Shown: positions 9,404 to 49,300 of the stretch, piece after piece
How positions within the stretch are numbered: position 1 is the first letter of the stretch
Layout of the letters: every line of letters starts with the position of its first letter
NCBI RefSeq assembly: GCF_037975245.1
Contig: NC_092571.1
Coordinates: 22,553,917-22,617,916 of the forward strand
DNA: 64,000 nt
Direction: 5' to 3'
DNA from: Apostichopus japonicus
Lineage: Eukaryota > Echinodermata > Holothuroidea > Aspidochirotida > Stichopodidae
The notes under the pieces: generated by a model
Told to the model about the DNA's origin: nothing
Database searches by the model: none
The model's input: the letters and a program-made list of their open reading frames with translations, nothing else
Made by a program: the position numbers and the translations under genes

Positions 9404-10028
9404 CGTGCTTATGGAAAGCCATTTTAACATTTAATCGGGAATTTTAGATATCTTAAATTGTTTCTCATTTTAGATATCTAAAATTCTATTTCAGATATCT
9501 GGAATTCAATTCGAGATATCTGAAATTTAATTCGAGATATCTGAAATTTTATTTCAGATATCTGAAATTGAATTCGAGATATCTAAAATAGATTTCGAGA
9601 TATCTGAAATTCTAATTCAGATATCTGAAATTGAATTCGAGATATCTGAAATTGAATTCGAGATATCTGAAATTGAATTCGAGATATCTGAAATTCTAAT
9701 TCAGATATCTGAAATTGAATTCGAGATATCTGAAATTGAATTCGAGATATTTGAAATTGAATTCGAGATATCTGAAATTCTAATTCAGATATCTGAAATT
9801 GAATTCGAGATATCTGAAATTCTATTTCAGATATCTGAAATAGAATTGCAGATATCTTGAATTCTCTGGTATTTCGAGATATCTGAAATTGATTTTAAGA
9901 TATCTGCAATTATTTGTAGATATCTTAAATAACTTGGAGATATCTGTAATTTAATATGAGATATCTGAAATTATTTCGAGATATCTCAAATTCCTTATTA
10001 AATGTTAAAACGGCTTTCCATACGTGCT
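9404..10028. mobile_element. Fold-back element of about 21-bp GATATC repeats with TIRs and 6-bp TSD
   Basis: Element body 9,410-10,022 (613 bp). The ends are inverted repeats of about 30 bp beginning TATGGAAAGCC and ending GGCTTTCCATA. The hexamer cgtgct flanks both sides (9,404-9,409 and 10,023-10,028) as an apparent target duplication. The interior is a tandem array of roughly two dozen units of 21-22 bp around the palindrome GATATC followed by TGAAATTGAATTC-type sequence; orientation flips between units. It contains no ORF. It lies between the convergent ends of the adhesion GPCR and the sulfotransferase. Confidence 0.8.
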
Positions 10029-10597: not shown

Positions 10598-12962
10598 TCA
10601 GTCTTTGACGTCTGCCCATAACCATCTATCCTCTCCTAGCAGATTGGCTAGATCTTTGTTCCATTGTTGATAAAATTGGCGGAGAAATGTTTTCGTTACA
10701 TCAAGCATGGGTCCAACATTGGATTTCTTTCGGTTTACGTTTTTCATTTTTGAATTACAGATCTTCTTAACTGACATTCCATTCAGCGTTTCTGGGGAAA
10801 AATTATAAGAAACAATGCAATATCATTAATTGTAATTCTTGACATTGTCCTCCTTCTTAATTATACGCCCCGCCCTTCATCTATGCATCTCTTGTTAATT
10901 AAGGTATAGGTGTATATATGTGCAATGTCAATAGCACCTACATTAAACTGACTATTGGGGGCCTGGCAGGCATGACCTATTTTCTAAAGAAACAAAACAA
11001 TTTTGACCATTTTTGTGGAGATCATCGCCCCTCGCCCCTCGCCTCGCCCGCCCCTCGCCTCGCCCCGCCCTCGCCCATCGCCCCTAGCCCCTGGAATACG
11101 CCACTGCTGACGATATCTCGGGCTTATGCATCTGCTATGATGCAACCAGCCAAAAAAAAAAATCCTTGCAATGTTACCATTTTTTGGGTAAACAAAGCCA
11201 TGCTGCTTTAAGCTCGTAAATTGAACATATTTTTATCGATATATATATTTCACTTACCGACTTCTAAAAATGCAAACACTTTTGGCAAGAAATCGAAACA
11301 GTGTAGGTGCCAATCTTCAAGACGAATAAATAGCATCTGGTCACGTGGAAAAACACTGAGCCAATCACGAGCGAAAACGGAATAGACTCCTATCATTGGT
11401 CGCTGTGGAGAAAGTTCAACGCAGTTGAATTACATATCACCATCACTCATAACGACTGTTTATAAAATCCAGGATCCGCCAATGGCATTTATGAATATGT
11501 ATGACATTTATGACAAGTATGAATATGTATGGCTAGGAGGGGTCAGGATGGGTGAGTACCGGTTAGATTGCAGGGTGTAAGTTTATGAGTATGCTTGGGA
11601 GGGTAGGGGTGCTGGTTACTTCAGTTTCTTTCTTTCTTGATTATTCTTCGAGTGTAACGTATTGGTTCCACATGTGACGAGTCACGTAAAAAAGGCACTC
11701 ATGTCTAAGTTCACTGTAGTTTTCTTCTTTATGCGATTCAGTAAACATAGTCCCTACAATATTTTTCATTCTCCATACTGATATGTTTACACGTCGTCTC
11801 AAAGTAAACATATAATCTATACTCACGATATCTCCGTTTTCCCCGGCACTCTGATAAACACATTTTCTCTTAGAGTGTTTCTCTACACACTTATTAAAAT
11901 CCTGGATCCGTTCAACGACTCGATCGTGGAACGATTCTGGTGTCGGATCTTTTGAGAAATAAATATACTCGGAGTAAAGCCTGGAAGAGAGGAAGACGAG
12001 AGAAAGGCGGTAACTCATTGTCATCTTTATATTCATGTTTAATTAAACATTGCGAGTGGGTAGTGGGGGGGGGGCAGAGGGGATACAACCTCCGGGAACA
12101 GGGGTCAATCAGTGGGATCGGGAATATGTTATAAAGAATAATGGATTATAATTTACATCATATAATTAAGAAAAGAGCAGGATTAATAAAAGGACATGGT
12201 GAAGCCCGACCTGGGTCTCGACCGACACTGCAGGGTCGTCAAATTGACAATAGACAGTATAAAGGTTACATGGGGAGGGAGAATGGCAGGGAGCATAGGT
12301 GTGACCATTTGTAGGTGACATGGGGTTAGTGTTTTACGTAGGCTAATATTCTAATTACCCACCCGCCGCACTAACTGTTGTAATTGTATTTTGAACAAGT
12401 CAAGAGTTCAACTGTTTCTCGCCAACACGTGACATAATAGAAAGGAACGAGGTATAGGATGGTTTTAATGACATCAATGAACTACTTAGCGAACGTGTGA
12501 TAGGATATGACAGGACTGTCAACGTGTTGTGGTGAAGAATACAGACGTTAAAGCTGTATTGTGGGTTGTATCTATCACGCTCTACAAATACCAAATGAGA
12601 CAAAACAAATATATCGAAAGTATTGATAAAATATCGAAAAATTATGGGGAAAGTCGTTCCGTATACTAACAAATGGAAGTCACTTTACGTTAATTATTGC
12701 TGTAACGAATCAAGATAACCTTCGTGATATTTAACGTTGGGATTTACCTGGCCACTGGTTCCCTAAAAGCTGCTATAAGTTTAGCTTTAGGTGTGACCGT
12801 CTTGATCACGTGAGGAAGAAAGAGTTGCGCATTGGGATCATCTGGATCAAAATATTCCCACCATCTGCGCATGTCCCATAGATATGAAGCCGATCCGTCA
12901 CCTGCAGAATGACAGTATGATGTGTGTTCAATCGATGTGGTTATGCGATATACAGAGAAAGG

Positions 12963-13042
<80 letters not shown>

Positions 13043-16000
13043 CATATATATGAAAGATGTACGAATAATTACGATTTTTTAAATTAAAAAATATGAACAA
13101 AAATAAATGTACAAACGTGTTATTGCTATGCAGACAATATTTTGTATTGCATATTCTTACACAACAGAAATATAGTATGATGTCAGATTAATAATTCAGA
13201 TTGGAAGATCCAACGTTTCGCACAACTGGTACATGAGTAAAATATAGCTTTTGGCATTATTAATTTTATTTTTTATTTTTGTATCATAGCTATTAATATA
13301 CAATATTAGAATATCTATCTATATCTATATATATTTAAACTGAGTCAGTTCCCTTTCGATTTCGACATTTGGCTCTCCGAATCCAAGGGATTCAGAGTCA
13401 ATATTGTGAACATGGTAAATATGAAACGATTAACAGAAAACAAAGAGGCAGTGGCACTATATGAACACATCAAAAATTGCAAAATGACAGTTCCCAGACA
13501 CGACTTTTTATCTAGGTTGTCTCCCAAACTGAACAGGTTTTTCTTGGCTGTTTGGTGTATGGAGTTGTTCTTCATAAACATATCTACCATATAAGCCAAA
13601 AATGATGGCTGGGTTTGTGTCCCATTTAAAAATGGGGGGAACGGTGTCCATTTAAGACCTCTCTGGTACAGGTAGGGTCCGGATATACTTAGAACAACGT
13701 AGACAAAAAAAACCTAGATATTTCAGTTTTGTTGGAGAAATACTTTATCACTCTTATTCTAAGAATCTAAGTAACTTCTTTGTTTTGATCTTATCTATGT
13801 AGCGTCTATACCTTGTAGTTGTAAGGATTTGACTGATATCGTCAAGAAAGAAAAAATTAAGGGGGAACGGTGTCCATATAAGACTATTCTGGTACGAGTG
13901 GGGTTCGAACCCACGCGGACATTTATCCATTGGAACTTAAGTCCAACGCCTTAACCACTCGGCCATCGTACCAGCTACGACAAAGTTCTTGGCTGAAGTT
14001 TGCCTAAAAAAACTTTTAAGAAAAGCTAAAACAGATGGGCAAATGTAAAACCTTAACTTTTGTATTAAGGAACTACGTAGAAAAAGAAACTTAGTTATTT
14101 TCTTTTTGTGTGAGAAATATTTCATCACTCCTAGTTTAAGATTGAAATAACTTCGTTGTATTGAACTTATCGATTTAAATCCTATAAATTGTTGTATGTC
14201 GGGATTCGACAAGGAAGAAAAAGGAAGGAGAAAAAGGAGAACGGTGTCCATATAAGTCTACTCTGGTACGAGTGGGGTTCGAACCCACGCGGACATTTGT
14301 CCATTGGAACTTAAGTCCAACGCCTTAACCACTCGGCTATCGTACCAGCTACGATATAAAACTTGGCTGAAGTTTGCCAAAAAAGGCCAACAAAAGGTAA
14401 AACAGATGGGTAAATGTATAAACTTAACTTTTGCATCAAGGAACAACGTAGAAAAAGTAACTTAGTTATTTTCTTTTTGTGTGAGAAATATTCCACCACT
14501 GCTAGTTTTTCGATTAAATTACTACGTTGTATTGAACTTATCTATGTAGGGCCTATGAATTGTTGTATGTCGGGATTCGACAAGAAAGAAAAAAATATGG
14601 AGAAAAAGGAGAACGGTGTCCATATAAGACTACTCTGGTACGAGTGGGGTTCGACCCACGCGGACATTTGTCCATTGGAACTTAAGTCCAACGCCTTAAC
14701 CACTCGGCCATCGTACCAGCTACGATATAAAACTTGGCTGAAGTTTGCCCAAAAAAAAAACGAAAGGTAAAACAGATGGGTAAATGTATAAACTTAACTT
14801 TTGCATCAAGGAACAACGTAGAAAAAGAAACTTAGATATTTTCTTTTTGTGTGAGAAATATTCCACCACTGCTAGTTTTTCGATTAAAATTACTACGTTG
14901 TATTGAACTTATCTATGTAGGGCCTATGAATTGTTGTATGTCGGTCTTCGACAAGAAAGAAAAAAATAAGGAGAAAAAGGAGAACGGTGTCCATATAAGA
15001 CTACTCTGGTACGAGTGGGGTTCGACCCACGCGGACATTTGTCCATTGGAACTTAAGTCCAACGCCTTAACCACTCGGCCATCGTACCAGCTACGATATA
15101 AAACTTGGCTGAAGTTTGCCAAAAAAACCAACGAAAGGTAAAACAGATGGGTAAATGTATAAACTTAACTTTTGCATCAAGGAACAACGTAGAAAAAGAA
15201 ACTTAGTTATTTCTTTTTGTATGAGAAAAAATTCCATCACTGCTAGGTTTTCGATTAAAATGACTTCGTTATATTGAACTTATCTATGTAGGGCCTATGA
15301 ATTGTTGTATGTCGGGATTCGACAAGAAAGAAAAAAATAAGGAGAAAAAGGAGAACGGTGTCCATATAAGTCTACTCTGGTACGAGTGGGGTTCGAACCC
15401 ACGCGGACATTTGTCCATTGGAACTTAAGTCCAACGCCTTAACCACTCGGCCATCGTACCAGCTACGCTATAAAACTTGGCTGAAGTTTGCCAATAAAAT
15501 GTAAAACAGAGGGGTAAATGTATAAACTTAACTTTTGCCCCAAGGAACAACGTAGAAAAAGAAACTTACTTATTTTCTTTTTTTGTGAGAAATATTTCAT
15601 CACTGCTAGTTTAAGATTAAAATAACTTCGTTGTATTGAATTTATCTATGTAGGGTCTATAAATTATTGTTTGTCGGGATTCGACAAGGAAGAAAAAAAA
15701 AGGAGAAATAGGAGAACGCTATCCATATTAGACTACTCTGGTACGAGTGGGGTTCGACCCACGCGGACATTTGTCCATTGGAACTTAAGTCCAACGCCTT
15801 AACCACTCGGCCATCGTACCAGCTACGATATAAAACTTGGCTGAAGTTTGCCAATAAAATGTAAAACAGAGGGGTAAATGTATATTCTTAACTTTTGCTT
15901 CAAGGAACAACGTAGAAAAGAAACTTAGTTATTTTCTTTTTGTGTGAGAAATATTTCATCACTCCTAGTTTAAGATTGAAATAACTTCGTTGTTTTGAAC

Positions 16001-19000
16001 TTATCGATTTAAATCCTATAAATTGTTGTATGTCGGTCATCGACAAGAAAGAAAAAAATAAGGAGAAAAAGGAGAACGGTGTCCATATAAGTCTACTCTG
16101 GTACGAGTGGGGTTCGAACCCACGCGGACATTTGTCCATTGGAACTTAAGTCCAACGCCTTAACCACTCGGCCATCGTACCAGCTACGATATAAAACTTG
16201 GCTGAAGTTTGCCAAAAAAAGCCAACAAAAGGTAAAACAGATGGGTAAATGTATAAACTTAACTTTTGCATCAAGGAACAACGTAGAAAAGAAACTTAGT
16301 TAATTTCTTTTTGTGTGAGAAAAAATTCCATCACTGCTAGTTTTTCGATTAAAATGACTTCGTTGTATTGAACTTATCTATGTAGGCCTATGAATTGTTG
16401 TATGTCGGGATTCGACAAGAAAGAAAAAATATGGAGAAAAAGGAGAACGGTGTCCATATAAGTCTACTCTGGTACGAGTGGGGTTCGAACCCACGCGGAC
16501 ATTTGTCCATTGGAACTTAAGTCCAACGCCTTAACCACTCGGCCATCGTACCAGCTACGCTATAAAACTTGGCTGAAGTTTGCCAATAAAATGTAAAACA
16601 GATGGGTAAATGTATAACCTTCACTTTTGATTCAAGGAACAACGTAGAAAAAAGAAACTTACTTATTTTCTTTTTTGTGAGAAATATTTCATCACTGCTA
16701 GTTTAAGATTAAAATAACTTCGTTGTATTGAATTTATCTATGTAGGGTCTATAAATTGTTGTTTGTCGGGATTCGACAAGAAAGAAAAAATATGGAGAAA
16801 TAGGAGAACGCTATCCATATTAGACTACTCTGGTACGAGTGGGGTTCGAACCCACGCGGACATTTGTCCATTGGAACTTAAGTCCAACGCCTTAACCACT
16901 CGGCCATCGTACCAGCTACGATATAATAATTGGATACAATTTGCCAAAAAGCTAAAAAGATGGGAAAATGTAATTTAACATTTTCTTCAAGGAACAACGT
17001 AGAAAAGGATAACTTAGTTATGTTTTTTTTTTGTGTGAGAAATATATATTTCACACTGTAAGTTTAAGATTGAAATAACTTCGTTGTATTGAACTTATCG
17101 ATTTAAATCCTATAAATTGTTGTATGTCGGGATTCGACAAGGAAGAAAAAGGAAGGAGAAAAAGGAGAACGGTGTCCATAAAAGACTACTCTGGTACGAG
17201 TGGGGTTCGAACCCACGCGGACATTTGTCCTTTGGAACTTAAGTCCAACGCCTTAACCACTCGGCCATCGTACCAGCTACGATATAATACTTGGCTGAAG
17301 TTTGCCAAAACACCAAAACAAGCTAAAACGGATGGGTAAATGTATAATCTTATCTTTTGCTTCAAGGAACAACGTAGAAAAAGAAACTTAGTTATTTTCT
17401 TTTTGTATGAGAAATATTTCATCACTGCTAGTTTAAGATTAAAATAACTTCGTTGTATTTAATTTATCTATGTAAGGCCTATAAATTGTTGTTTGTCGGG
17501 ATTCGACAAGGAAGAAAAAGGAAGGAGAAAAAGGAGAACGGTGTCCATAAAAGACTACTCTGGTACGAGTGGGGTTCGAACCCACGCGGACATTTGTCCA
17601 TTGGAACTTAAGTCCAACGCCTTAACCGCTCGGCCATCGTACCAGCTACGACATAATACTTGGCTGAAGTTTGCCAAAAAACAGCTAAAAAGATGGGTAA
17701 ATGTATAATCTTAACTTTTGCTTCAAGGAACAACGTAGAAAAAAAACTTAGTTAATTTTTTTTTGTGTGAGAAAAAATTCCATCACTGCTAGTTTTTCGA
17801 TTAAAATGACTTCGTTGTATTGAACTTATCTATGTAGGCCTATGAATTGTTGTATGTCGGTCTTCGACAAGAAAGAAAAAATACGGAGAAAAAGGAGAAC
17901 GGTGTCCATATAAGTCTACACTGGTACGAGTGGGGTTCGAACCCACGCGGACATTTGTCCATTGGAACTTAAGTCCAACGCCTTAACCACTCGGCCATCG
18001 TACCAGCTACGATATATCACTTGGCTGAACTTTGCCAAAACGCCAAAACAAGCTAAAACAGATGGGTAAATGTATAATCCTATCTTTTGCTTCAAGCAAC
18101 AACGTAGAAAAAGAAACTTAGTTAATTTCTTTTTGTATGAGAAAAAATTCCATCACTGCTAGTTTTTCGATTAAAATGACTTCGTTGTATTGAACTTATC
18201 TATGTAGGCCTATGAATTGTTGTATGTCGGGATTCGACAAGAAAGAAAAAATATGGAGAAAAAGGAGAACGGTGTCCATATAAGTCTACTCTGGTACGAG
18301 TGGGGTTCGAACCCACGCGGACATTTGTCCATTGGAACTTAAGTCCAACGCCTTAACCACTCGGCCATCGTACCAGCTACGCTATAAAACTTGGCTGAAG
18401 TTTGCCAATAAAATGTAAAACAGATGGGTAAATGTATAACCTTAACTTTTGCTTCAAGGAACAACGTAGAAAAAAGAAACTTACTTATTTTCTTTTTTTG
18501 TGAGAAATATTTCATCACTGCTAGTTTAAGATTAAAATAACTTCGTTGTATTGAATTTATCTATGTAAGGCCTATAAATTGTTGTTTGTCGGGATTCGAC
18601 AAGGAAGAAAAAATATGGAGAAATAGGAGAACGCTATCCATATTAGACTACTCTGGTACGAGTGGATTTCGAACCCACGCGGACATTTGTCCATTGGAAC
18701 TTAAGTCCAACGCCTTAACCACTCGGCCATCGTACCAGCTACGACATAATACTTGGCTGAAGTTTGCCAAAAAACAGCTAAAAAGATGGGTAAATGTATA
18801 ATCTTAACTTTTGCTTCAAGGAACAACGTAGAAAAAGTAACTTAGTTATTTTCTTTTTGTGTGAGAAATAATTCCATCACTGCTAGTTTAAGATTAAAAT
18901 AACTTCGTTGTATTGAACGTATATATGTAGATCCTACAAATTGTTGTTTGTCGGGATTCGACAAGAAAGAAAACGTAACGAGAAAAAGGAGCACGGTGTC

Positions 19001-22000
19001 CAAATAAGACTACTCTGGTACGAGTGGGGTTCGAACCCACGCGGACATTTGTCCATTGGAACTTAAGTCCAACGCCTTAACCACTCGGCCATCGTACCAG
19101 CTACGATATAAAACTTGGCTGAAGTTTGCCAAAAAAATCCAACAAAAGGTAAAACAGATGGGTAAATGTATAAACTTAACTTTTGCATCAAGGAACAACG
19201 TAGAAAAGAAACTTAGTTAATTTCTTTTTGTGTGAGAAAAAATTCATCACTGCTAGTTTTTCGATTAAAATGACTTCGTTGTATTGAACTTATCTATGTA
19301 GGCCTATGAATTGTTGTATGTCGGTCTTCGACAAGAAAGAAAAAATATGGAGAAAAAGGAGAACGGTGTCCATATAAGTCTACACTGGTACGAGTGGGGT
19401 TCGAACCCACGCGGACATTTGTCCATTGGAACTTAAGTCCAACGCCTTAACCACTCGGCCATCGTACCAGCTACGCTATAAAACTTGGCTGAAGTTTGCC
19501 AATAAAATGTAAAACAGATGGGTAAATGTATAACCTTAACTTTTGCTTCAAGGAACAACGTAGAAAAAAGAAACTTACTTATTTTCTTTTTTTGTGAGAA
19601 ATATTTCATCACTGCTAGTTTAAGATTAAAATAACTTCGTTGTATTGAATTTATCTATGTAAGGCCTATAAATTGTTGTTTGTCGGGATTCGACAAGGAA
19701 GAAAAAATATGGAGAAATAGGAGAACGCTATCCATATTAGACTACTCTGGTACGAGTGGATTTCGAACCCACGCGGACATTTGTCCATTGGAACTTAAGT
19801 CCAACGCCTTAACCACTCGGCCATCGTACCAGCTACGACATAATACTAGGCTGAAGTTTGCCAAAAAACAGCTAAAAAGATGGGTAAATGTATAATCTTA
19901 ACTTTTGCTTCAAGGAACAACGTAGAAAAAGTAACTTAGTTATTTTCTTTTTGTGTGAGAAATAATTCCATCACTGCTAGTTTAAGATTAAAATAACTTC
20001 GTTGTATTGAACGTATATATGTAGATCCTACAAATTGTTGTTTGTCGGGATTCGACAAGAAAGAAAACGTAACGAGAAAAAGGAGCACGGTGTCCAAATA
20101 AGACTACTCTGGTACGAGTGGGGTTCGAACCCACGCGGACATTTGTCCATTGGAACTTAAGTCCAACGCCTTAACCACTCGGCCATCGTACCAGCTACGA
20201 TATAAAACTTGGCTGAAGTTTGCCAAAAAAAGCCAACAAAAGGTAAAACAGATGGGTAAATGTATAAACTTAACTTTTGCATCAAGGAACAACGTAGAAA
20301 AGAAACTTAGTTAATTTCTTTTTGTGTGAGAAAAAATTCCATCACTGCTAGTTTTTCGATTAAAATGACTTCGTTGTATTGAACTTATCTATGTAGGCCT
20401 ATGAATTGTTGTATGTCGGTCTTCGACAAGAAAGAAAAAATATGGAGAAAAAGGAGAACGGTGTCCATATAAGTCTACTCTGGTACGAGTGGGGTTCGAA
20501 CCCACGCGGACATTTGTCCATTGGAACTTAAGTCCAACGCCTTAACCACTCGGCCATCGTACCAGCTACGCTATAAAACTTGGCTGAAGTTTGCCAATAA
20601 AATGTAAAACAGATGGGTAAATGTATAACCTTAACTTTTGCTTCAAGGAACAACGTAGAAAAAAGAAACTTACTTATTTTCTTTTTTTGTGAGAAATATT
20701 TCATCACTGCTAGTTTAAGATTAAAATAACTTCGTTGTATTGAATTTATCTATGTAGGGTCTATAAATTGTTGTTTGTCGGGATTCGACAAGAAAGAAAA
20801 AATATGGAGAAATAGGAGAACGCTATCCATATTAGACTACTCTGGTACGAGTGGGGTTCGAACCCACGCGGACATTTGTCCATTGGAACTTAAGTCCAAC
20901 GCCTTAACCACTCGGCCATCGTACCAGCTACGATATAATAATTGGATACAATTTGCCAAAGAGCTAAAAAGATGGGAAAATGTAATTTAACATTTTCTTC
21001 AACGAACAACGTAGAAAAGGATAACTTAGTTATGTTTTTTTTTTGTGTGAGAAATATATATTTCACACTGTAAGTTTAAGATTGAAATAACTTCGTTGTA
21101 TTGAACTTATCGATTTAAATCCTATAAATTGTTGTATGTCGGGATTCGACAAGGAAGAAAAAGGAAGGAGAAAAAGGAGAACGGTGTCCATAAAAGACTA
21201 CTCTGGTACGAGTGGGGTTCGAACCCACGCGGACATTTGTCCATTGGAACTTAAGTCCAACGCCTTAACCACTCGGCCATCGTACCAGCTACGATATAAT
21301 ACTTGGCTGAAGTTTGCCAAAACACCAAAACAAGCTAAAACGGATGGGTAAATGTATAATCCTATCTTTTGCTTCAAGCAACAACGTAGAAAAAGAACTT
21401 AGTTATTTTCTTTTTGTATGAGAAATATTTCATCACTGCTAGTTTAAGATTAAAATAACTTCGTTGTATTTAATTTATCTATGTAAGGCCTATAAATTGT
21501 TGTTTGTCGGGATTCGACAAGGAAGAAAAAATAAGGAGAAATAGGAGAACGCTGTCCATATAAGACTACTCTGGTACGAGTGGGGTTCGAACCCACGCGG
21601 ACATTTGTCCATTGGAACTTAAGTCCAACGCCTTAACCACTCGGCCATCGTACCAGCTACGATATAATAATTGGATACAATTTGCCAAAGAGCTAAAAAG
21701 ATGGGAAAATGTAATTTAACATTTTCTTCAACGAACAACGTAGAAAAGGATAACTTAGTTATGTTTTTTTTTTGTGTGAGAAATATATATTTCACACTGT
21801 AAGTTTAAGATTGAAATAACTTCGTTGTATTGAACTTATCGATTTAAATCCTATAAATTGTTGTATGTCGGGATTCGACAAGGAAGAAAAAGGAAGGAGA
21901 AAAAGGAGAACGGTGTCCATAAAAGACTACTCTGGTACGAGTGGGGTTCGAACCCACGCGGACATTTGTCCATTGGAACTTAAGTCCAACGCCTTAACCA

Positions 22001-25000
22001 CTCGGCCATCGTACCAGCTACGATATAATACTTGGCTGAAGTTTGCCAAAACACCAAAACAAGCTAAAACGGATGGGTAAATGTATAATCCTATCTTTTG
22101 CTTCAAGCAACAACGTAGAAAAAGAACTTAGTTATTTTCTTTTTGTATGAGAAATATTTCATCACTGCTAGTTTAAGATTAGTTTAGTTTAGTTTAGTAG
22201 AAAAAAGGATCAGGAGGGACACTTAAGTCCCCATCAAGGACCCTATAAAGAGAGGGAAAAAAACTGAAGACACAAACACTCAGACCCGATTACAATGCTT
22301 AAAGTGCTTGTCCAAAGCATTCTTAAACCCATTGACACTACTTGCAAGTACAACTTTCTCAGGCAAACTATTCCACTCATTCACAACCCTATTAGAAAAA
22401 AAGTTATGCCGAATATTAATCCTACTATGCGACTTTTGAAGTTTAAGACAATGACCTCTAGTACAACTACTGTTTGCAAACATGAAAAAGTCGGTAAAGG
22501 ATAAATTGTCGAAACCATACACAATCTTGAAAACCTGGATCAAGTCCCCACGTAACCTCCTAAGCTCCAGTGTGGTGAGATTCAACAGTTGTAACCGCCT
22601 ATAATAAGGAACCCTCTTTAAGGAACTAATCATCCTAGTAGCCCTCCTCTGGACCTTTTCAAGTACTTCCTTATCCTTAGCAAAATAAGGGTTCCAAGCC
22701 TGCACAGCATACTCCAGATGAGGCCTAACCAACTGCTTATAAAGCCTAACTACGATGTCCTCTTTCAGAAAACTGAAGTTCCTCTTGATCATACCTAAAA
22801 CCCTATTACCTCTTTTAGCAGCTTCAAGACAATGTTTGGAAGGTTGCAGAGACGAGTCAATGTAGATACCTAGGTCTCTTTCAACAGAGACCTCCTGTAA
22901 CTCCACACCATTTAGATTGTATGTAAACTTTTGGTTACTACTACCAATGTGCATTACCTTACATTTATCAATATTAAAAAGCATTTGCCACCCCTGAGAC
23001 CAGGAAAAAATCTTATCTAAATCCGCTTGAAATTTCTCAGAATCGCTTTTGGAAGAGACCTCAGAATACAATTTGGTGTCATCAGCAAACTTCTTAGCTG
23101 TACACAAAATATCTCCGTCGATGTCATTTATATAGGCAACAAACAACAGGGGACCTAATACAGACCCTTGTGGAACCCCACTAGTAACGTTCTGCCAAGA
23201 AGAAGCACAGCCATTAATTACCACCCTCTGTTCCCTATTACCAAGCCAATTCCCGATCCAAGACAGTAAATTCCCTATGACACCCATGCTCTTCAGCCTA
23301 AGTAAAAGACGCTGGTGGGGAACTTTATCAAAGGCCTTCTGGAAATCCAGGAACACAACATCTACAGACATCTGCCTATTTAGTGAGCTTGTTACATCTT
23401 CCATAAACTCAAGGATATTAGTGAGACAAGACCTTTTTTGACAAAAGCCATGCTGAGACTCTCTGATCAAAGACTGACTGCTGAAGTGACAGACCAAAGA
23501 CTTTTTAACAATAGACTCCATGACCTTACAAACTACACTAGTGAGACTAACGGGCCTATAATTACAGGGCTTAGTCTTATCACCCTTCTTGAAAATTGGG
23601 GTAATATTAGCACATCTCCAGTCCCTAGGAACATAACCTTCATCCATAAATTTACTAAAAATCAACGAGAGTGGAACGCAGAAATAGTGTGCAAGAGTCT
23701 TCAACAAATACGGATGGATTGCATCCGGTCCAGAAGCTTTAGAAACATTTAGACGAAGCAGCTCCTTTAAGACAACGTCATCCGAAAATAAGACCGTATC
23801 CAGTTTAGGCCTATCACTGCCCCCCTGAAAATCTGGAATACTACTCGTATCTTCCCTTGTGAAAACCGACACAAAATAGTCGTTCAAAAGATCTGCAACA
23901 TCCTGACTATCAGTAACTATCTTATCAGCCTGTGGTGCCCTAAGGGAAACAATTGCATCTTTAACTTTCTGCTTAGACCTGACATAAGAAAAGAAGGCCT
24001 TTGGGTTATCCTTAATTTTTAGGGCGATGCTTTTTTCGAAATTCAATTTTGCATCAGAGACTAAGCATTCTACTTTCAGCTGATGAATTTTAAACTTGGC
24101 CAAAAGAGATTCAGATTTAGTCCTCCTAAACAACTTCCACATTCTACGTTTTTGCCTAATTGCACATCTAACTTTCTTATTCATCCAGTGAGGCATACTG
24201 CTTTTACGACGACGATTCTTCCACGGAACATGATTTTCCATAATGACCTTTAATTTATCAGCAAAACAAATCCAAGACTGAGAAGCACTCATATCACTAA
24301 ACAAATTAATCCAATCTGTACCCTTTAGTAAAGTTTCAATTGCCTCTGTATCTGATCTCGAAAAATCAGGGACTTTTTCCTTGCTAATAGAACTTACGAC
24401 CTTACAAACAACATCAAAAGCTAGTATATCATGATCACTAGTTCCTAGTTTTCCTAGACCGGTCAAATCAACAACATTGCTTGGATTAGAACTCAAAACA
24501 AGATCCAGGATGTTATCCCCCCTAGTAGGGAAAGTAACATGTTGATGTAAAAAGCAATCTTGCACAACATCTAGAAAATTACTACCTTTCCTACTACTAG
24601 AACCATCTATCCAATTAATGTCAGGAAAATTAAAGTCGCCCATTATAACAACATCACCTTTAGCAGCCTTTCTAATTGAATCAAACAGCACGACATCATT
24701 ATCATCGCTGCTGTTAGGAGAGCGGTAAACAACACCTACAGTGATAACGTCCCTGGACCTCTTGGAGTTGTTTGTGGACAACTCGCACCAGACAGAATTA
24801 ACAAAAGACCCTTGCAACTGAGATTTCTCAACACTTACAATGTCATCCCTAACATACAGTAAAACTCCCCCACCAACCCCATTATGAGTATCCCTTCTGT
24901 CCTGACGATACACAACATACCCCGGGTGAGAAACCTCAGCACTATCAATGTCCTCCCTTAACCAAGACTCGGTGATACCAAACACATCCGGTTTCAGATC

Positions 25001-28000
25001 CTCGAGAAGCACAGTAAATTCAGCAAAATTTTTACGAATACTTCTAGCATTGGTAAAGACAATCTTCAGCCTATCCCTGAAACTATGTACCTTAGCATGC
25101 CTCCTAAAGTTAGAACTATGACTATCACTTATTTTGCTCTCAAAACGCCTATAATCGCCTCCACTAGGAACATAATCCTTATCCAAACTAATTCCTGACT
25201 TCATCGCCCCCCAATTTAGTTTAAACATAGCTGTTCAACAGAGTAATTCACCATCCTACCAAACAACGAGGCCCCAGTATTAGCTAAGTGCAAACCATCC
25301 CTGGCGAACAGATCCCTTCTACCCTGGAAAGATGACCACATGTCAACAAATGTGAAGCCGAAGTCGGCACACAAACTATACAATAAACCATTCAAAGTTA
25401 CAATCTTTTCTGACAGAACCTTGCTGTCAAATCTTGGCAACAAACTGCATATGACAACTTTAGCCCGAGTTGATGCTAGTCGACACATCAATTCGTGGTA
25501 CCTAGACTGAATAATGTTTTGCGACTCCTTCTGCACATTGTTAGTGCCTACCTGGACTACAACCACCTCCTCATCTGACACGATTTTGTTTACCCTGTTA
25601 CTGACATCCTGGATTTTAGCACCTGGCAAACATACCCTGACCCTTTTTGCTTTATCCGCCCTGCAGAACTCTCGGTCTACATACCGTACTAATGAATCCC
25701 CAATTAAAATAACTTCGTTGTATTTAATTTATCTATGTAAGGCCTATAAATTGTTGTTTGTCGGGATTCGACAAGGAAGAAAAAATAAGGAGAAATAGGA
25801 GAACGCTGTCCATATAAGACTACTCTGGTACGAGTGGGGTTCGAACCCACGCGGACATTTGTCCATTGGAACTTAAGTCCAACGCCTTAACCACTCGGCC
25901 ATCGTACCAGCTACGATATAATAATTGGATACAATTTGCCAAAGAGCTAAAAAGATGGGAAAATGTAATTTAACATTTTCTTCAACGAACAACGTAGAAA
26001 AGGATAACTTAGTTATGTTTTTTTTTGTGTGAGAAATATATATTTCACACTGTAAGTTTAAGATTGAAATAACTTCGTTGTATTGAACTTATCGATTTAA
26101 ATCCTATAAATTGTTGTATGTCGGGATTCGACAAGGAAGAAAAAGGAAGGAGAAAAAGGAGAACGGTGTCCATAAAAGACTACTCTGGTACGAGTGGGGT
26201 TCGAACCCACGCGGACATTTGTCCATTGGAACTTAAGTCCAACGCCTTAACCACTCGGCCATCGTACCAGCTACGATATAATACTTGGCTGAAGTTTGCC
26301 AAAACACCAAAACAAGCTAAAACGGATGGGTAAATGTATAATCCTATCTTTTGCTTCAAGCAACAACGTAGAAAAAGAACTTAGTTATTTTCTTTTTGTA
26401 TGAGAAATATTTCATCACTGCTAGTTTAAGATTAAAATAACTTCGTTGTATTTAATTTATCTATGTAAGGCCTATAAATTGTTGTTTGTCGGGATTCGAC
26501 AAGGAAGAAAAAATAAGGAGAAATAGGAGAACGCTGTCCATATAAGACTACTCTGGTACGAGTGGGGTTCGAACCCACGCGGACATTTGTCCATTGGAAC
26601 TTAAGTCCAACGCCTTAACCACTCGGCCATCGTACCAGCTACGATATAATAATTGGATACAATTTGCCAAAGAGCTAAAAAGATGGGAAAATGTAATTTA
26701 ACATTTTCTTCAACGAACAACGTAGAAAAGGATAACTTAGTTATGTTTTTTTTTGTGTGAGAAATATATATTTCACACTGTAAGTTTAAGATTGAAATAA
26801 CTTCGTTGTATTGAACTTATCGATTTAAATCCTATAAATTGTTGTATGTCGGGATTCGACAAGGAAGAAAAAGGAAGGAGAAAAAGGAGAACGGTGTCCA
26901 TAAAAGACTACTCTGGTACGAGTGGGGTTCGAACCCACGCGGACATTTGTCCATTGGAACTTAAGTCCAACGCCTTAACCACTCGGCCATCGTACCAGCT
27001 ACGATATAATACTTGGCTGAAGTTTGCCAAAACACCAAAACAAGCTAAAACGGATGGGTAAATGTATAATCCTATCTTTTGCTTCAAGCAACAACGTAGA
27101 AAAAGAACTTAGTTATTTTCTTTTTGTATGAGAAATATTTCATCACTGCTAGTTTAAGATTAAAATAACTTCGTTGTATTTAATTTATCTATGTAAGGCC
27201 TATAAATTGTTGTTTGTCGGGATTCGACAAGGAAGAAAAAATAAGGAGAAATAGGAGAACGCTGTCCATATAAGACTACTCTGGTACGAGTGGGGTTCGA
27301 ACCCACGCGGACATTTGTCCATTGGAACTTAAGTCCAACGCCTTAACCACTCGGCCATCGTACCAGCTACGACATAATACTTGGCTGAAGTTTGCCAAAA
27401 AACAAGCTAAAATGATGGGTAAATGTATAATCTTAACTTTTGCTTCAAGGAACAACGTAGAAAAAGTAACTTAGTTATTTTCTTTTTGTGTGAGAAATAA
27501 TTCCATCACTGCTAGTTTAAGATTAAAATAACTTCGTTGTATTGAACGTATATATGTAGATCCTACAAATTGTTGTTTGTCGGTCTTCGACAAGAAAGAA
27601 AAAGTAACGAGAAAAAGGAGCACGGTGTCCAAATAAGACTACTCTGGTACGAGTGGGGTTCGAACCCACGCGGACATTTGTCCATTGGAACTTAAGTCCA
27701 ACGCCTTAACCACTCGGCCATCGTACCAGCTACGATATAAAACTTGGCTGAAGTTTGCCAAAAAAAGCCAACAAAAGGTAAAACAGATGGGTAAATGTAT
27801 AAACTTAACTTTTGCATCAAGGAACAACGTAGAAAAGAAACTTAGTTAATTTCTTTTTGTGTGAGAAAAAATTCCATCACTGCTAGTTTTTCGATTAAAA
27901 TGACTTCGTTGTATTGAACTTATCTATGTAGGCCTATGAATTGTTGTATGTCGGTCTTCGACAAGAAAGAAAAAATATGGAGAAAAAGGAGAACGGTGTC

Positions 28001-31000
28001 CATATAAGTCTACACTGGTACGAGTGGGGTTCGAACCCACGCGGACATTTGTCCATTGGAACTTAAGTCCAACGCCTTAACCACTCGGCCATCGTACCAG
28101 CTACGATATAACACTTGGCTGAACTTTGCCAAAACGCCAAAACAAGCTAAAACAGATGGGTAAATGTATAATCCTATCTTTTGCTTCAAGCAACAACGTA
28201 GAAAAAGAAACTTAGTTAATTTCTTTTTGTATGAGAAAAAATTCATCACTGCTAGTTTTTCGATTAAAATGACTTCGTTGTATTGAACTTATCTATGTAG
28301 GCCTATGAATTGTTGTATGTCGGTCTTCGACAAGAAAGAAAAAATATGGAGAAAAAGGAGAACGGTGTCCATATAAGTCTACTCTGGTACGAGTGGGGTT
28401 CGAACCCACGCGGACATTTGTCCATTGGAACTTAAGTCCAACGCCTTAACCACTCGGCCATCGTACCAGCTACGCTATAAAACTTGGCTGAAGTTTGCCA
28501 ATAAAATGTAAAACAGATGGGTTAATGTATAACCTTAACTTTTGCTTCAAGGAACAACGTAGAAAAAAGAAACTTACTTATTTTCTTTTTTTGTGAGAAA
28601 TATTTCATCACTGCTAGTTTAAGATTAAAATAACTTCGTTGTATTGAATTTATCTATGTAGGGTCTATAAATTGTTGTTTGTCGGGATTCGACAAGAAAG
28701 AAAAAATATGGAGAAATAGGAGAACGCTATCCATATTAGACTACTCTGGTACGAGTGGGGTTCGAACCCACGCGGACATTTGTCCATTGGAACTTAAGTC
28801 CAACGCCTTAACCACTCGGCCATCGTACCAGCTACGATATAATAATTGGATACAATTTGCCAAAAAGCTAAAAAGATGGGAAAATGTAATTTAACATTTT
28901 CTTCAAGGAACAACGTAGAAAAGGATAACTTAGTTATGTTTTTTTTGTGTGTGAGAAATATATATTTCACACTGTAAGTTTAAGATTAAAATAACTTCGT
29001 TGTATTGAACTTATCGATTTAAATCCTATAAATTGTTGTATGTCGGGATTCGACAAGGAAGAAAAAGTAACGAGAAAAAGGAGAACGGTGTCCATAAAAG
29101 ACTACTCTGGTACGAGTGGGGTTCGAACCCACGCGGACATTTGTCCATTGGAACTTAAGTCCAACGCCTTAACCACTCGGCCATCGTACCAGCTACGATA
29201 TAATACTTGGCTGAAGTTTGCCAAAACACCAAAACAAGCTAAAACGGATGGGTAAATGTATAATCCTATCTTTTGCTTCAAGCAACAACGTAGAAAAAGA
29301 AACTTAGTTATTTTCTTTTTGTATGAGAAATATTTCATCACTGCTAGTTTAAGATTAAAATAACTTCGTTGTATTTAATTTATCTATGTAAGGCCTATAA
29401 ATTGTTGTTTGTCGGGATTCGACAAGGAAGAAAAAATAAGGAGAAATAGGAGAACGCTGTCCATATAAGACTACTCTGGTACGAGTGGGGTTCGAACTAA
29501 CGCGGACATTTGTCCATTGGAACTTAAGTCCAACGCCTTAACCACTCGGCCATCGTACCAGCTACGACATAATACTTGGCTAAAGTTTGCCAAAAAACAG
29601 CTAAAAAGATGGGTAAATGCATAATCTTAACTTTTGCTTCAAGGAACAACGTAGAAAAAGTAGCTTAGTTATTTTCTTTTTGTGTGAGAAATAATTCCAT
29701 CACTGCTAGTTTAAGATTAAAATAACTTCGTTGTATTGAACGTATATATGTAGATCCTACAAATTGTTGTTTGTCGGTCTTCGACAAGAAAGAAAAAGTA
29801 ACGAGAAAAAGGAGCACGGTGTCCAAATAAGACTACTCTGGTACGAGTGGGGTTCGAACCCACGCGGACATTTGTCCATTGGAACTTAAGTCCAACGCCT
29901 TAACCACTCGGCCATCGTAGCAGCTACGATATAACACTTGGCTGAAGTATGCCAAAACGCCAAAACAAGCTAAAACGGATGGGTAAATGTATAATCCTAT
30001 CTTTTGCTTCAAGCAACAACGTAGAAAAAGAAACTTAGTTATTTTCTTTTTGTATGAGAAATATTTCCATCACTGCTAGTTTAAGATTAAAATAACTTCG
30101 TTGTATTGAATTTATCTATGTAGGGCCTATAAATTGTTGTTTGTCGGGATTCGACAAGAAAGAAAAAATAAGGAGAAATAGGAGAACGCTGTACATATTA
30201 GACTACTCTGGTACGAGTGGGGTTCGAACCCACGCGGACATTTGTCCATTGGAACTTAAGTCCAACGCCTTAACCACTCGGCAATCGTACCAGCTACGAT
30301 ATAATACCTGGCTACAATTTACCAAAAAAACTAAAAAAGATTGGAAAATGTACCTAAACCTTTCTCCGAGGAACAATGAAGAAAAGGAAAGTTGTCAAAA
30401 ACTTTATTCTAATACAAGTGGGCTTCGAATTTACGCTGATATTTGTCCATTGGAACTTAAGACCATGGCCTTAATTCGTCTATAACATCGCTTCTAATAA
30501 TAATAATAACGATAAAACAAAGATTTATCATGCGCACGTATCCACCCAGAGAAGGGCGCTCAAGGCACTCAAGCTTGTCGCATACGGTGAGTCTTAAGCC
30601 TCTTTTTTAAAGGAGGAGACACTCTGATCCATCTTGATTTCAAGTGGTTACATATTCCAAAATGGTGGTGCAGCGACTGACAAATCATTACTAATTCAGA
30701 TCTATGTTATGGATGATTTTTGCAGACATTTTGATTAAAATATGTCAAAAACCAAAGTCTTGTTAGTTTTATATGAAATTAAGAGACTTGTCTTAAAATG
30801 TGAATAACATACGTACCTAAAACATATTTACTAGCGTAATTGGGCATCTGCTGCATCTTTTTAATAGTGCTAATAGACCGGCTGATGTACACTCGTGCCC
30901 TGTTGCGATCTGGTTGGAAAAAAAAAAGAAATTAGCAGCAAAATAGATCGTTATGATCACAATGTCTCGTAAAAGGCAGTCTTGTGTTATCTACAGGGCC

Positions 31001-42949: not shown

Positions 42950-45290
42950 GCAGGTTTCGTACCTATTACTTCATGACCTTCATTGGCTACCTGTCAAACT
43001 GCGTATTGATTACAAGGTACTCCTGTTAACCTTTAAATGTATTCATGGTATTGCGCCACACTACTTGGGTGAACTTGTTCAAAGTTATACCCCAACTCGC
43101 CGTCTGCGCTCTAGCGCCCAATCATTGCTCTCTATGCAACCTGTGTCCACTAAATCTTATGGCGAGCGATCTTTCCAGTACTCCTCTATGGCGGGCCATC
43201 AGTCTCAAATCATGGGAGATCGACTTATACCGATTTAAATCGACATATACCAGTTTCCTTCGACATATACCAGTTTCCTTCGACTTATACCAGTTTCATT
43301 CTACATATCATCGATTTAAATCGACATATACCAGTTTCCTTCGACATATCATCGATTTAAATCGACATATACCAGTTTCATTCTACATATCATCGATTTA
43401 TTTTACTTATCATCGATTTAAATCGATGATAAGTAAAATAAATCGATGATATGTCGAAGGAAACTGGTATATGTCGATTTAAATCGATGATATGTAGAAT
43501 GAAACTGGTATATGTCAATTTAAATCGACATATCATCGATTTATTCTACATATCATCGATTTATTTTACTTATCATCGATTTAAATCGATGATAAGTAAA
43601 ATAAATCGATGATATGTCGAAGGAAACTGGTATATGTCGATTTAAATCGATGATATGTAGAATGAAACTGGTAGAAGTCAATTTAAATCGACATATCATC
43701 GATTTATTCTACATATCATCGATTTATTTTACTTATCATCGATTTAAATCGATGATATGTAAAATAAATCGATGATATGTCCATTTAAATCGACATCTAC
43801 CAGTTTAAATCGATGATATGTCGAATTAAATCGGTAGAAGCCAATTTCCGTGGACTTATACCAGTTTCTAGCGTCTCAAATCGACATATACCTATTTAAA
43901 TCGACATATCATCGATTTAGCTCATTAACATATTCCAAATCCCGATTTCGGTGATGATTGACATGTGAAGATACGTCACGTGAAGTCACCTGACAAGGCG
44001 GGCGAATAATTGAAAATAAACACGAGCACAGTGGAATGCATGATTTGAGCTTGAATACTGTAACTGTTAAACCCCATGGGTATATACTTAGCTACATTAA
44101 AACGTAACCTTACAGTAGGCCTCACTGCAGAACAATATCATCTTTGTTTATAGTGTAACTGGAGTAGGTAATTGCATCTGTGTACGTACTGTGGGCCTAT
44201 TCAGTTGCATGTGTATTCCTATACTATAGCGCCACGTGTTCGAGTAGACAAGCCCAGTTTGCATTGATATAATTGCACGTCATTGACATATCTGTTATTT
44301 CAGCCTTATTGTTACACCGACATCTTTTTGCAAGTAATTGTTCATAATTACCATTGACATACTGTATAACCATGATGAACACCCTTTCTAGCTTCGTAAT
44401 TTTGGAACTATTAAATTACTCGCCCGCCTTGTCAGGTGACTACACGTGATGTATCTCCACATGTCAATCATCACCGAAATCGGGATTTGGAATATGTTAA
44501 TGAGCTAAATCGATGATATGTCGATTTAAATAGGTATATGTCAATTTGAGACGCTAGAAACTGGTATAAGTCCACGGAAATTGACTTCTACCGATTTAAT
44601 TCGACATATCATCGATTTAAACTGGTAGATGTCGATTTAAAAGGACATATCATCGATTTATTTTACATATCATCGATTTAAATCGATGATAAGTAAAATA
44701 AATCGATGATATGTAGAATAAATCGATGATATGTCGATTTAAATTGACATATACCAGTTTCATTCTACATATCATCGATTTAAATCGACATATACCAGTT
44801 TCCTTCGACATATCATCGATTTATTTTACTTATCATCGATTTAAATCGATGATAAGTAAAATAAATCGATGATATGTAGAATGAAACTGGTATATGTCGA
44901 TTTAAATCGATGATATGTCGAAGTAAACTGGTATATGTCGATTTAAATCGATGATAAGTAAAATAAATCGATGATATGTCGAGGGAAACTGGTATATGTC
45001 GATTTAAATCGGTATAAGTCGATCTCCCATGATTTGAGACTGATGGCCCGCCATACTCCTCAACCCTCCTTTGGAATAAACTCCCACTCAACATAAAGAA
45101 TGTCGTGTCTGTTAAGATGTTCAAAACTGTTTTGAAGACACACACCTGTTTTCATTGTCATAATTGTTATGTTTACTCTTATTGTATATTGTGTACATAT
45201 CTTTCACTTTCTTTTGTACAGCGCGCCAAGACTTTATTGTAAGTTGCGCTATATAAGAACTGTTTATTATTTTTATTATTAATTATTCCT
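42950..45290 (+). mobile_element. L2-like LINE 3' fragment, split by a fold-back element
   Basis: 42,950-43,186 encodes the end of a reverse transcriptase-type ORF2 (LHWLPVKLRIDYKVLLLTFK, IHGIAPHYL, SYTPTRRLRSS). After the insertion, 45,062-45,240 continues the same frame (LLWNKLPLNIKN, MFKTVLKTH) to a stop. It ends in a GCGCTATATAAGAAC...(TTATT)n tail typical of L2-type elements. Only the last part of the element is present, so it is an old 5'-truncated copy. Confidence 0.75.
43181..45061. mobile_element. 1.87-kb fold-back element with very long inverted arms and 6-bp TSD
   Basis: Body 43,187-45,055. Termini TATGGCGGGCC / GGCCCGCCATA; target duplication ctcctc at 43,181-43,186 and 45,056-45,061. 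The two arms (about 43,187-44,010 and 44,415-45,055) are inverted copies. Each is packed with short modules: ATCGATTTAAATCGAT palindromes alternating with CGACATATACCAGTTTC and TACATATC types. A unique central spacer of about 400 bp has no recognisable ORF. The flanking LINE frame is restored if the element and one TSD copy are removed. Confidence 0.85.
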
Positions 45291-46331: not shown

Positions 46332-49300
46332 ATGAATAACGCTTCCGACTCCATGCCCACTGAAGAAATCAGTCCAATAGGGGCAGGGATATCACTGGTG
46401 GCTCTTCTGACCTTTGACATCGCTGGTAGCATCGTTTTAATGTTTTCACTTTATCTTCATCTCCGAAAAGTGAAGGAGAGGCAACTAAACACGCGAACTG
46501 CTTTTCAGTTATTGTTGTATTTCACGATGATTGAGTTTGCATACAGTACTTTTGTGGAAAGTATTTCAGTTGTGTGTTACCTCAACGCATCGTTCAATTT
46601 GACGATGTCTCGTGCTTTATGCTTATTTCAAGCTTGGGCTGGTTTAACATTAACAGGCTCCGCTACATGGACTATGACTTTGCTAGCTGTTGAAAGGTTC
46701 TTATCTGGAACGAAACCAGTTTCTTCACAGGGACAAAAGAGAAGACGTGACCGATTATTTTATACTTGTTACACAGGTATTACCATTTCCGCGATATTAG
46801 CTGTCGTCCCGGTAACCAGAGAGGACAGCGTAACAATCTTCGATCCATCGAGAGGTTTCTGCCATTTTAGTTACAGTGTCAACGATGATCCTCTCATGAC
46901 GTCATTTTGTATATGCATAATCGTTTTGACCTTGATATTATTCCAAATCCAATTTTATTCATTTGTGAACCTTTTATGTGAGGAACGCCAAACAGTGAAA
47001 GCAGTTAAGAATAAGATCAAACTTGACTATGAAGAACAGAATACATCAAGACATCAGAATCTAGCAATTTATCAAGAATATTGGTTATATCGAAGTAAAC
47101 ACCGGAGGACATTTGGAGGCAGACATGAATGGAACTTAACCGCCACCGTACTATCATTAGTCGTCTGGTTGTGGGTGTGTCTATTACTATTCCTGGTGAG
47201 TTTGGCTTGTCGATGTTATGATATAGGCCTAACTTGACTTGTTGTTGTTGTTGTTGATGTGATGATGGATAGAAATCGGTGGGGAGGAAACGGGGAAGAG
47301 AGGGAGAGGGGGAGGGGGACTACGGGAGATTTAAGGTAGGGAAGGGTGATTTTGCGTAGATAATTTGGCAACACGTATAAGTTGTGATCATTCTTGCAGA
47401 CACTAGCAGGAAGTCAGACATATCTTATACTGTTGGCTGAAAACTTCATCTCAAAATCTTGGTCAGAAATCTTCAGATATATTTGATTGAATTTTTATCC
47501 ACATAAACCCTTCCGTACTCCAAGAAGTAGATAATAGTAGGTGTTTTGTCATGGTTTCATCATAAGAGACAATGTTCTAAAGCTGTTTTATTTGAATAAT
47601 AATATTGCTGCTGATTTATTGTTTGTGCTACATTTGGAAGGTTTGCTTGATTTGAAATGTTAAGCTCAATTATTTCATTATTGATATCTCTTATTCGGTT
47701 TTTACCATAGACAGTCATAAAAATCTCCTCGATAAAAAATGATATTCGGAAGCGGTTAAATGACCTAGAAACTTTCTTAAATAATTAACTTTAGCCACCA
47801 GAACATTTCAAGTTTAAGTTTCACTGATTTTCTCTAAAAGACAGTGTTTTGTGATCTCCAAGCTGAAGTCAGCATGTGTATATACTTTTAATCACCCCTA
47901 AGTATAATTGTACCAACTGTCTTTCTTCATTCAAGATCGATTTATTCCTTTTATACTAACAGGTCTCATTAGTCAAATCTCAGTTAGGAGGAGAGGTTTC
48001 TCCACAGATCAGGTTTGCTGCCGTGAGCATGCTCTCCATTCATAACGCAATCAATCCCTTCCTGACGATCTTCATTTTCGCGCCATTTCGTCAAAGGGCA
48101 TTACACTTCATAACGTGTGGGCGAATAGAATACAGCAGAGATGATTTCATACTAAGTAAATATCTAGAGCATGACGTCAACAGCAACAGCGAACCTAATT
48201 GGTGGAGAGTTGTTGAGCGCAACCAATGGGACGAGACCATACCTTCTGAGAGACACAGGAATGGGACGTACGTCTATGAGAATGACGTTACTGATGATGT
48301 AGATTCATATTATGAAAGTGAATACGAAAGCAATAGAAGTTACAGTCATGATGGTTAGTGCACACTGCATATATGATTATACGAATGCATGAGAATGAAT
48401 GAATGAATGAATGGATGGATGGATGGATGAATGAATGAATTAGTTTCGTGCAACTACTACATTTCTCACATAGTGGTATATTTGAACAAACTGTTGGCCA
48501 TGAATCGCCTAATAAAGTAACTTGCCGTGAACATATTGTGTATGTAATTTAGTCACTTTATAACTGTCGTGATTCACCGCTTCAGCGTTTAACCTGATAG
48601 AACAAACCAAAATGTTATTGTAGTGATTTTCATCAAAAAGTTATGTAAGAACCATTACGTCTATTACGTTATATTTTCCTTTCAGATGTAATGTCTGGTC
48701 GTTCTACGCAGTCAACGGTTCCATCAAGTGTTTACTATCTGAACGATGACGGTGCGGTGGATGTAAGTAACGATTACCTTCTTTCGGTACCGGTTAACCG
48801 ACCCGGAGCCGGTAGCGGAGAGATTGTTGAACGGATATTCATCCTCCACGAATCTGCAAAGATTGGTAGCGATGGCAACGGGTTAATAAAGACTTCATCA
48901 GAATTAATAGGAGAGGACGTGTCAAATTCTCCGAAACTAAGAAAAGTTGTCCAAAGCTACAGGTTTCAAGAAATGTTGAAACGTAACCGTCGCGACCGGG
49001 AAGATATCTCTCCGCGATTATTTAAAGTAGTTCCACCAGATTCATCTTTACTGCAAAGTGAATATACTATGAGAGATGCAGATAGCAAGGTCACTAACGA
49101 AGGAAAGCAAAGTGCTACCTTTATTGAGTCTGTCCAAATGACACCTAAACTGAGGCGAATTGTTGAATCACCAGCTTTTAGAACCGCTGCGCTTCAGTCG
49201 GATTCTTTCGTTATAGATTCTGAATCGAGTTCGTCAAGCCCAGAACATTTAAGGCGAAGTGGACCACATAAAGCTTCAAGAACGGAACAAGGCAATGTTA

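Follow-up and report, generated by a model that had tools for sequence, protein, structure and literature searches.

Here we report that the holothurian Apostichopus japonicus carries 36 genes for tRNA-Leu(UAA) in tandem, all of them placed by our exon model within a single intron of a sulfotransferase gene. The genes were found in a stretch of 64,000 nucleotides (NCBI RefSeq assembly GCF_037975245.1, contig NC_092571.1, positions 22,553,917 to 22,617,916 of the forward strand), which is referred to as the window; all positions below are positions in it. Judged from the sequence, the genes probably form a functional array for RNA polymerase III (Pol III), which would have grown by crossing-over inside the intron and would be removed together with it.

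The tRNA array and its host gene

ARAGORN and Rfam both find 36 tRNA genes in the window, the number that had been given in a first-pass annotation of this DNA, and ARAGORN assigns each of them to tRNA-Leu with the anticodon TAA. Scores for the Rfam family RF00005 lie between 50.6 and 65.7 bits at a cut-off of 29. The genes span positions 13,889-30,292, and all 36 are on the minus strand, which, as had also been claimed, is the strand of the host gene. They follow each other at a pitch of 360-374 bp with a single larger step of 3,893 bp that contains an insert. According to Tandem Repeats Finder (23.2 and 12.7 copies) and an alignment of the units, the array consists of head-to-tail units of common descent. 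Units are named in the order of transcription, from U01 (30208-30292) to U36 (13889-13973), and fall into two blocks:

13889..22016, minus strand: tRNA-Leu(UAA) genes U36 to U14 (23 genes, pitch 360-374 bp)
25825..30292, minus strand: tRNA-Leu(UAA) genes U13 to U01 (13 genes, pitch 360-371 bp)

When a single unit was folded together with 45 bases of its trailer, a cloverleaf was predicted, and the long variable arm is visible both in the Rfam alignment of one unit and in the predicted fold of one unit. Sequences corresponding to the A and B boxes are present inside each intact tRNA gene, as compared by eye with the consensus motifs. A run of at least five T begins 28-40 bases after the gene in all 36 cases, and in seven of the 36 genes four T are additionally present at 8 bases. 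In the U09 unit, the T run is closely followed by a short inverted repeat (TTGTCG-AATCC-CGACAA, 27214-27230), which, in part slightly shortened, is seen in the majority of the 36 trailers.

The host gene was modelled with seven coding exons, all on the minus strand. Joined, these give a frame that stays open over 557 codons, and each of the six introns is of the GT-AG type. The gene had been described as apparently intact, and the model agrees with this description:

31978..32709, minus strand: coding exon 1, from the ATG (exon model)
31446..31647, minus strand: coding exon 2 (exon model)
30817..30909, minus strand: coding exon 3, upstream of the array (exon model)
12902..30816, minus strand: predicted intron 3, between coding exons 3 and 4 (17,915 bp, GT-AG, phase 1, codon split into G and GT)
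12748..12901, minus strand: coding exon 4, downstream of the array (exon model)
11827..11980, minus strand: coding exon 5 (exon model)
11258..11402, minus strand: coding exon 6 (exon model)
10598..10791, minus strand: coding exon 7, to the stop codon (exon model)

The interval 12902-30816 to which the array had been assigned coincides exactly with intron 3 of this model, and the codon is split as it had been reported. At the donor side, exon 3 ends in AAATATGTTTTAG at 30817 and is followed by gtacgt; at the acceptor side, ttctgcag precedes GTGACGGA, with which exon 4 begins at 12901. After subtraction of the array and of its insert, a long interspersed nuclear element (LINE), 1,075 bp of intron 3 are left, and the other five introns measure about 0.3-0.8 kb according to the exon coordinates. 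A chance agreement of the splice phases was considered and rejected, since the frame continues through seven exons and the sulfotransferase match crosses the junction of exons 3 and 4. This match, to the Pfam family Sulfotransfer_1, covers residues 277-539 of the joined protein (E 6.5e-7; 29.4 bits at a curated cut-off of 22), and the junction lies at about residue 343. When the C-terminal 289 residues were searched against solved structures, four distinct sequences were matched. Three of these matches are to heparan sulfate 3-O-sulfotransferase 3A1; they are weak, and the two alignments printed consist of two collinear pieces each. The fourth is labelled just Sulfotransferase. The protein may also resemble CHST15. 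Within the array, poly(A) signals are found seven times in sense and 35 times in antisense orientation, from which we draw no conclusion because the units are copies of one another.

The insert accounting for the one large step lies in the spacer of unit U13:

22193..25702, minus strand: LINE in the spacer of unit U13 (3.5 kb; ends uncertain by a few bases)

It has the same orientation as the host and the tRNA genes and contains a frame of 984 codons, counted from stop to stop, for an endonuclease-reverse transcriptase (22280-25234), next to a GDSL/SGNH esterase-like frame (25216-25728) which extends past the edge of the element. The combination of esterase and reverse transcriptase is typical of CR1-like elements. 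As judged by eye, both ends of the LINE adjoin sequence that matches the uninterrupted unit U11. When its flanks are rejoined, they show 99.7% similarity to units U09, U11 and U15, so that the insertion looks recent. The two joints have a TAAT in common, which could reflect a short duplication of the target or chance. The element terminates in ACTAA repeats.

Conservation of the tRNA genes and growth of the array

The same 83 bases are present in 24 of the 36 tRNA copies. Five further copies carry one substitution which we judged to be mild (U01 G9T, U26 T16C, U27 T44A, U35 G9A and U36 C48T). For a comparison with the spacers, 35 units were aligned, U13 being omitted because it is split by the LINE, and counts were made on 34 of them, U36 being left out as well since its spacer has drifted. 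Among these 34 units, the tRNA has a diversity of 0.0077 per site, about 14-fold lower than that of the spacer (0.111), and eight of 83 tRNA columns are variable as compared to 105 of 278 spacer columns. Divergence between whole units from U01 to U35 is as high as about 20%. Parsimony on a spacer-based tree requires nine substitution steps for the 83 tRNA columns and 195 for the 278 spacer columns (binomial P 2e-13; losses of one base are outside this count), and a frame of 83 columns placed within the spacer gives 38-85 steps in all 196 placements.

The last units of the array are in line with this contrast. U36 has one change in 83 tRNA positions, whereas its spacer shows 29 mismatches in 185 positions of a local alignment, the tail of this spacer being probably non-homologous (P about 1e-5). 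For U35, the corresponding numbers are one in 83 and 23 in 278 (P 0.007). When all 36 copies are considered, diversity rises at no more than about 10 bases from the ends of the genes; at 30-60 bases upstream of them, where T runs also make the alignment uncertain, it amounts to 0.25-0.37. This suggests that the tRNAs have been kept functional by selection, in contrast to the drifting spacer DNA.

Outside the array proper, decayed copies are found within the intron at both edges:

30384..30475, minus strand: decayed tRNA copy at the 5' edge of the array (81% over 70 bp)
13636..13681, minus strand: decayed copy at the 3' edge, comprising a tRNA 3' end and trailer (80% over 46 bp)

In the 5' relic, 12 of 65 aligned tRNA bases, counted by eye, are changed. 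Thus, copies beyond the array proper do drift in their tRNA part. Such decay is to be expected at edges, where pairing partners are lacking.

The order of the units points to the way in which the array may have grown. With a threshold of 96.5%, the spacers from U01 to U36 are of the types A B C D E F G B A D A D (U13) D A D E G B E G B E F H C D E G I E G J J K L. Because U13 is 99.7% like the type A units U09, U11 and U15, units U09-U16 can be read as the dimer A D repeated four times; they are followed in U17-U22 by the trimer E G B repeated twice. Exact duplicates of whole units also occur (U09, U11 and U15; U10 and U12; U14 and U16; U20 and U23), leaving 30 distinct sequences among 35 units. 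We infer that unequal crossing-over has been at work, with which the recurring dimers and trimers and the exact unit copies are compatible. The LINE within the array, the decayed copies at both of its edges and the arrangement of spacer types in blocks go beyond what the first-pass annotation contained.

Taken together, these observations would be accounted for by the following course of events. The starting point would have been a single working tRNA-Leu(UAA) gene located in an otherwise unremarkable intron of roughly 1 kb, from which unequal crossing-over would have produced units of 360-374 bp arranged head to tail. Every one of these would represent a separate Pol III gene with internal A and B boxes and a T-run terminator. 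Selection for enough tRNA-Leu(UAA), perhaps assisted by gene conversion, would preserve most of the copies while the spacers drift, and copies displaced to the edges would decay. RNA polymerase II (Pol II) would read through both the array and the LINE whenever the sulfotransferase is expressed, and both would be removed as intron. Interference between the polymerases, excision of tRNAs from the pre-mRNA and the dosage of the UUA-decoding tRNA had been raised as questions in the first-pass annotation.

Several points weigh against this reading of the array as a working set of genes under selection. Seven of the 36 copies carry changes that we judged to be damaging, since impaired folding or an impaired B box is to be expected: U02 (G2C, in an acceptor pair), U03 (G61T and G62A, in the T stem), U20 and U23 (C70A and C71T, at the end of the T loop and in the B box), as well as U31, U33 and U34 (one base missing in the T loop and B box). 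The count of thirty-six given earlier holds, with the qualification that not all copies look intact: 24 are identical, five mildly changed and seven apparently damaged, the last of these being a point that the first-pass annotation did not mention. This sorting is our judgement from the sequence, and by it about 29 copies (24 plus five) would likely give a normal tRNA. The predicted fold is of ordinary stability when compared to shuffled sequences (z -0.95), 34 of 200 shuffles being equal or better. Furthermore, the same T-loop base is missing in U33 and U34 of spacer group J as in U31 of group E. Exchange between units may therefore contribute to the uniformity of the tRNAs, a repeated loss from TT to T being also possible, and selection need not be the sole force. 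As the units are linked by descent and exchange, the P values given above are also optimistic.

Alternative explanations and neighbouring sequences

An array that is mostly silent appears unlikely to us. It would be closed or methylated in most tissues, possibly with activity in a particular cell type, and only some of the copies would supply the tRNA. Silencing of clustered tRNA genes has been described for Arabidopsis (PMC12308677, PMC10701932). In C. elegans, intronic tRNA genes have a lower Pol III occupancy, which is lower still for those on the host strand (PMC4999229). The CpG content of the array argues in the other direction. The ratio of observed to expected CpG is 1.05 in the spacer as compared to 0.78 in the rest of the window and 0.48 in the LINE, and 13 of 14 consensus CpG sites (six of seven in the spacer) are CG in all 34 units despite the 105 variable spacer columns. 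This counts against long-standing methylation in the germline, to which the argument is confined, provided that the species methylates its DNA. A long silence would also relax selection on the tRNA, and the step counts show no such relaxation. Methylation and activity need not exclude each other, since a cluster in Arabidopsis, although highly methylated, regains activity in root tips (PMC12308677).

Unlikely, too, is the idea that the host promoter governs the array. The passage of Pol II would then open or block the 36 UUA-decoding genes jointly, and the supply of tRNA-Leu(UAA) would be tied to the tissue or stage in which the sulfotransferase is made. For sup-7, an intronic tRNA gene of C. 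elegans, a supply tied to host expression has been reported (PMC4999229). As part of this reading, tRNAs might also be excised from the spliced intron. In the host gene described here, UUA codes for five of 36 leucines; thus, the host is not itself a heavy user of this codon.

We regard it as very unlikely that the array is a functionless satellite derived from a tRNA and kept uniform through unequal exchange and conversion alone. Exchange is evident from the exact whole-unit duplicates and the recurring spacer blocks, and the T-loop loss common to different spacer groups would fit as well. However, exchange alone should homogenize spacer and tRNA equally, and here the units diverge while the tRNA hardly does. 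Furthermore, the boundary of conservation tracks the gene to within about 10 bases, and the terminal copy U36 is nearly unchanged next to a drifted spacer. The least probable explanation is an assembly error by which the array would belong elsewhere or have a wrong copy number: a single assembly was used, and the longest exact repeat, 942 bp, could not be crossed by short reads, but the window contains no N, decayed units lie at both array edges within the intron, and the LINE, found once in the array, and the 30 distinct sequences among 35 units serve as anchors. These relics and anchors make the location of the array credible, the exact copy number less so.

Two further candidates were rejected. 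A tRNA-derived short interspersed nuclear element was dismissed within the window, where the copies are tandem and not dispersed; 3' tails and target-site duplications were not searched for. A unit used as query finds, outside the tandem block and within the window, only the two edge relics and a 45-bp stretch at 62277-62321, which is 84% like part of the array spacer and lies on the other strand, far from the array. Another RNA encoded in the spacer was rejected after a permissive Rfam scan of 841 bp (26900-27740). It gave 11 matches, namely three tRNAs and eight others, the latter being far below the gathering scores of their families (E 0.035-0.89). Scans of viral, bacterial and archaeal contigs with exact patterns, where little was expected, yielded no relatives of the array.

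Elsewhere in the window, secretin-type and rhodopsin-type seven-transmembrane receptors and a fumarase gene in pieces are encoded; with their introns of spliceosomal type, these would fit the animal origin of the DNA. The pieces of the fumarase gene, with matches to Pfam Fumerase and Fumerase_C, are located at 53433-58216 on the minus strand; presumably the gene specifies a class I enzyme, a type unusual in animals. A frame of 674 codons from stop to stop (48649-50673) lacks a Pfam match and contains recurring PKLRRIV-like motifs, as seen by eye. Dense repeats of 20, 41, 61 and 163 bp, with units also in inverted orientation, were recognized by eye at 43220-45023. A 21-bp tandem repeat of about 25 copies at 9472-9992 has long open frames on both strands.

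Significance and comparison with known systems

If expressed, the array would offer a natural experiment, in many copies, on the passage of Pol II through Pol III genes on the same strand, and on whether the supply of a tRNA can be coupled to its host gene. Identical tRNA genes normally cannot be told apart by their transcripts. Here, the trailers are in many cases different, so that precursor RNA could reveal from which group of copies, and sometimes from which individual copy, it comes. Furthermore, one and the same array displays gene conservation beside exchange of units, for which the decaying edge copies provide an internal control.

Tandem tRNA arrays have been described in Entamoeba (PMC2652664). 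The tRNA variable number tandem repeat at human 1q23.3 comprises 9-43 units per allele (PMC4041453); it resembles the array described here in being a tandem array with tens of tRNA copies, whose units are 98% alike and include tRNA-Leu. It differs in its 7.3-kb GC-rich unit, where both strands carry tRNA genes, five in all and of four kinds, as compared to one kind of tRNA per AT-rich unit of 360-374 bp within an intron; no word beginning with intron occurs in the main text of that paper. The tRNA-Cys clusters of Arabidopsis are comparable in having one tRNA per unit of about 420 bp, units that are 84-94% alike, a pseudogene at the edge and an internal putative transposon (PMC10701932). Outside these clusters, the Arabidopsis genome has one or two intronic tRNA-Cys genes, and clusters of tRNA-Pro often overlap introns. 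However, the tRNA-Cys cluster has four copies in the reference genome, not 36, and is reported to be largely silenced, and the intronic cases are on the strand opposite to the host.

In C. elegans, 44% of 609 tRNA genes are located in introns of protein-coding genes, 56% of the intronic ones in the direction of the host, but a large array in one intron is not described in the available part of that paper (PMC4999229). Clusters with fifty and more members, genes as well as pseudogenes, are known from Nematostella and teleosts; in Nematostella and zebrafish the pairs are mostly of mixed kinds, and the available text does not treat clusters inside introns (PMC2888827). The MIR element in intron 1 of Polr3e is likewise a Pol III unit located within the intron of a gene for Pol II, and its influence on the elongation of Pol II has been measured, but it is one antisense short interspersed nuclear element as opposed to 36 tRNA genes in sense orientation (PMC5358760). 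Searches of the open-licence literature by title or beginning of the abstract, in part with narrow terms, returned no same-strand tRNA array of comparable size in one intron. Large tRNA clusters and intronic tRNA genes are each known, and their combination at the size found in A. japonicus is best regarded as a variant of these systems.

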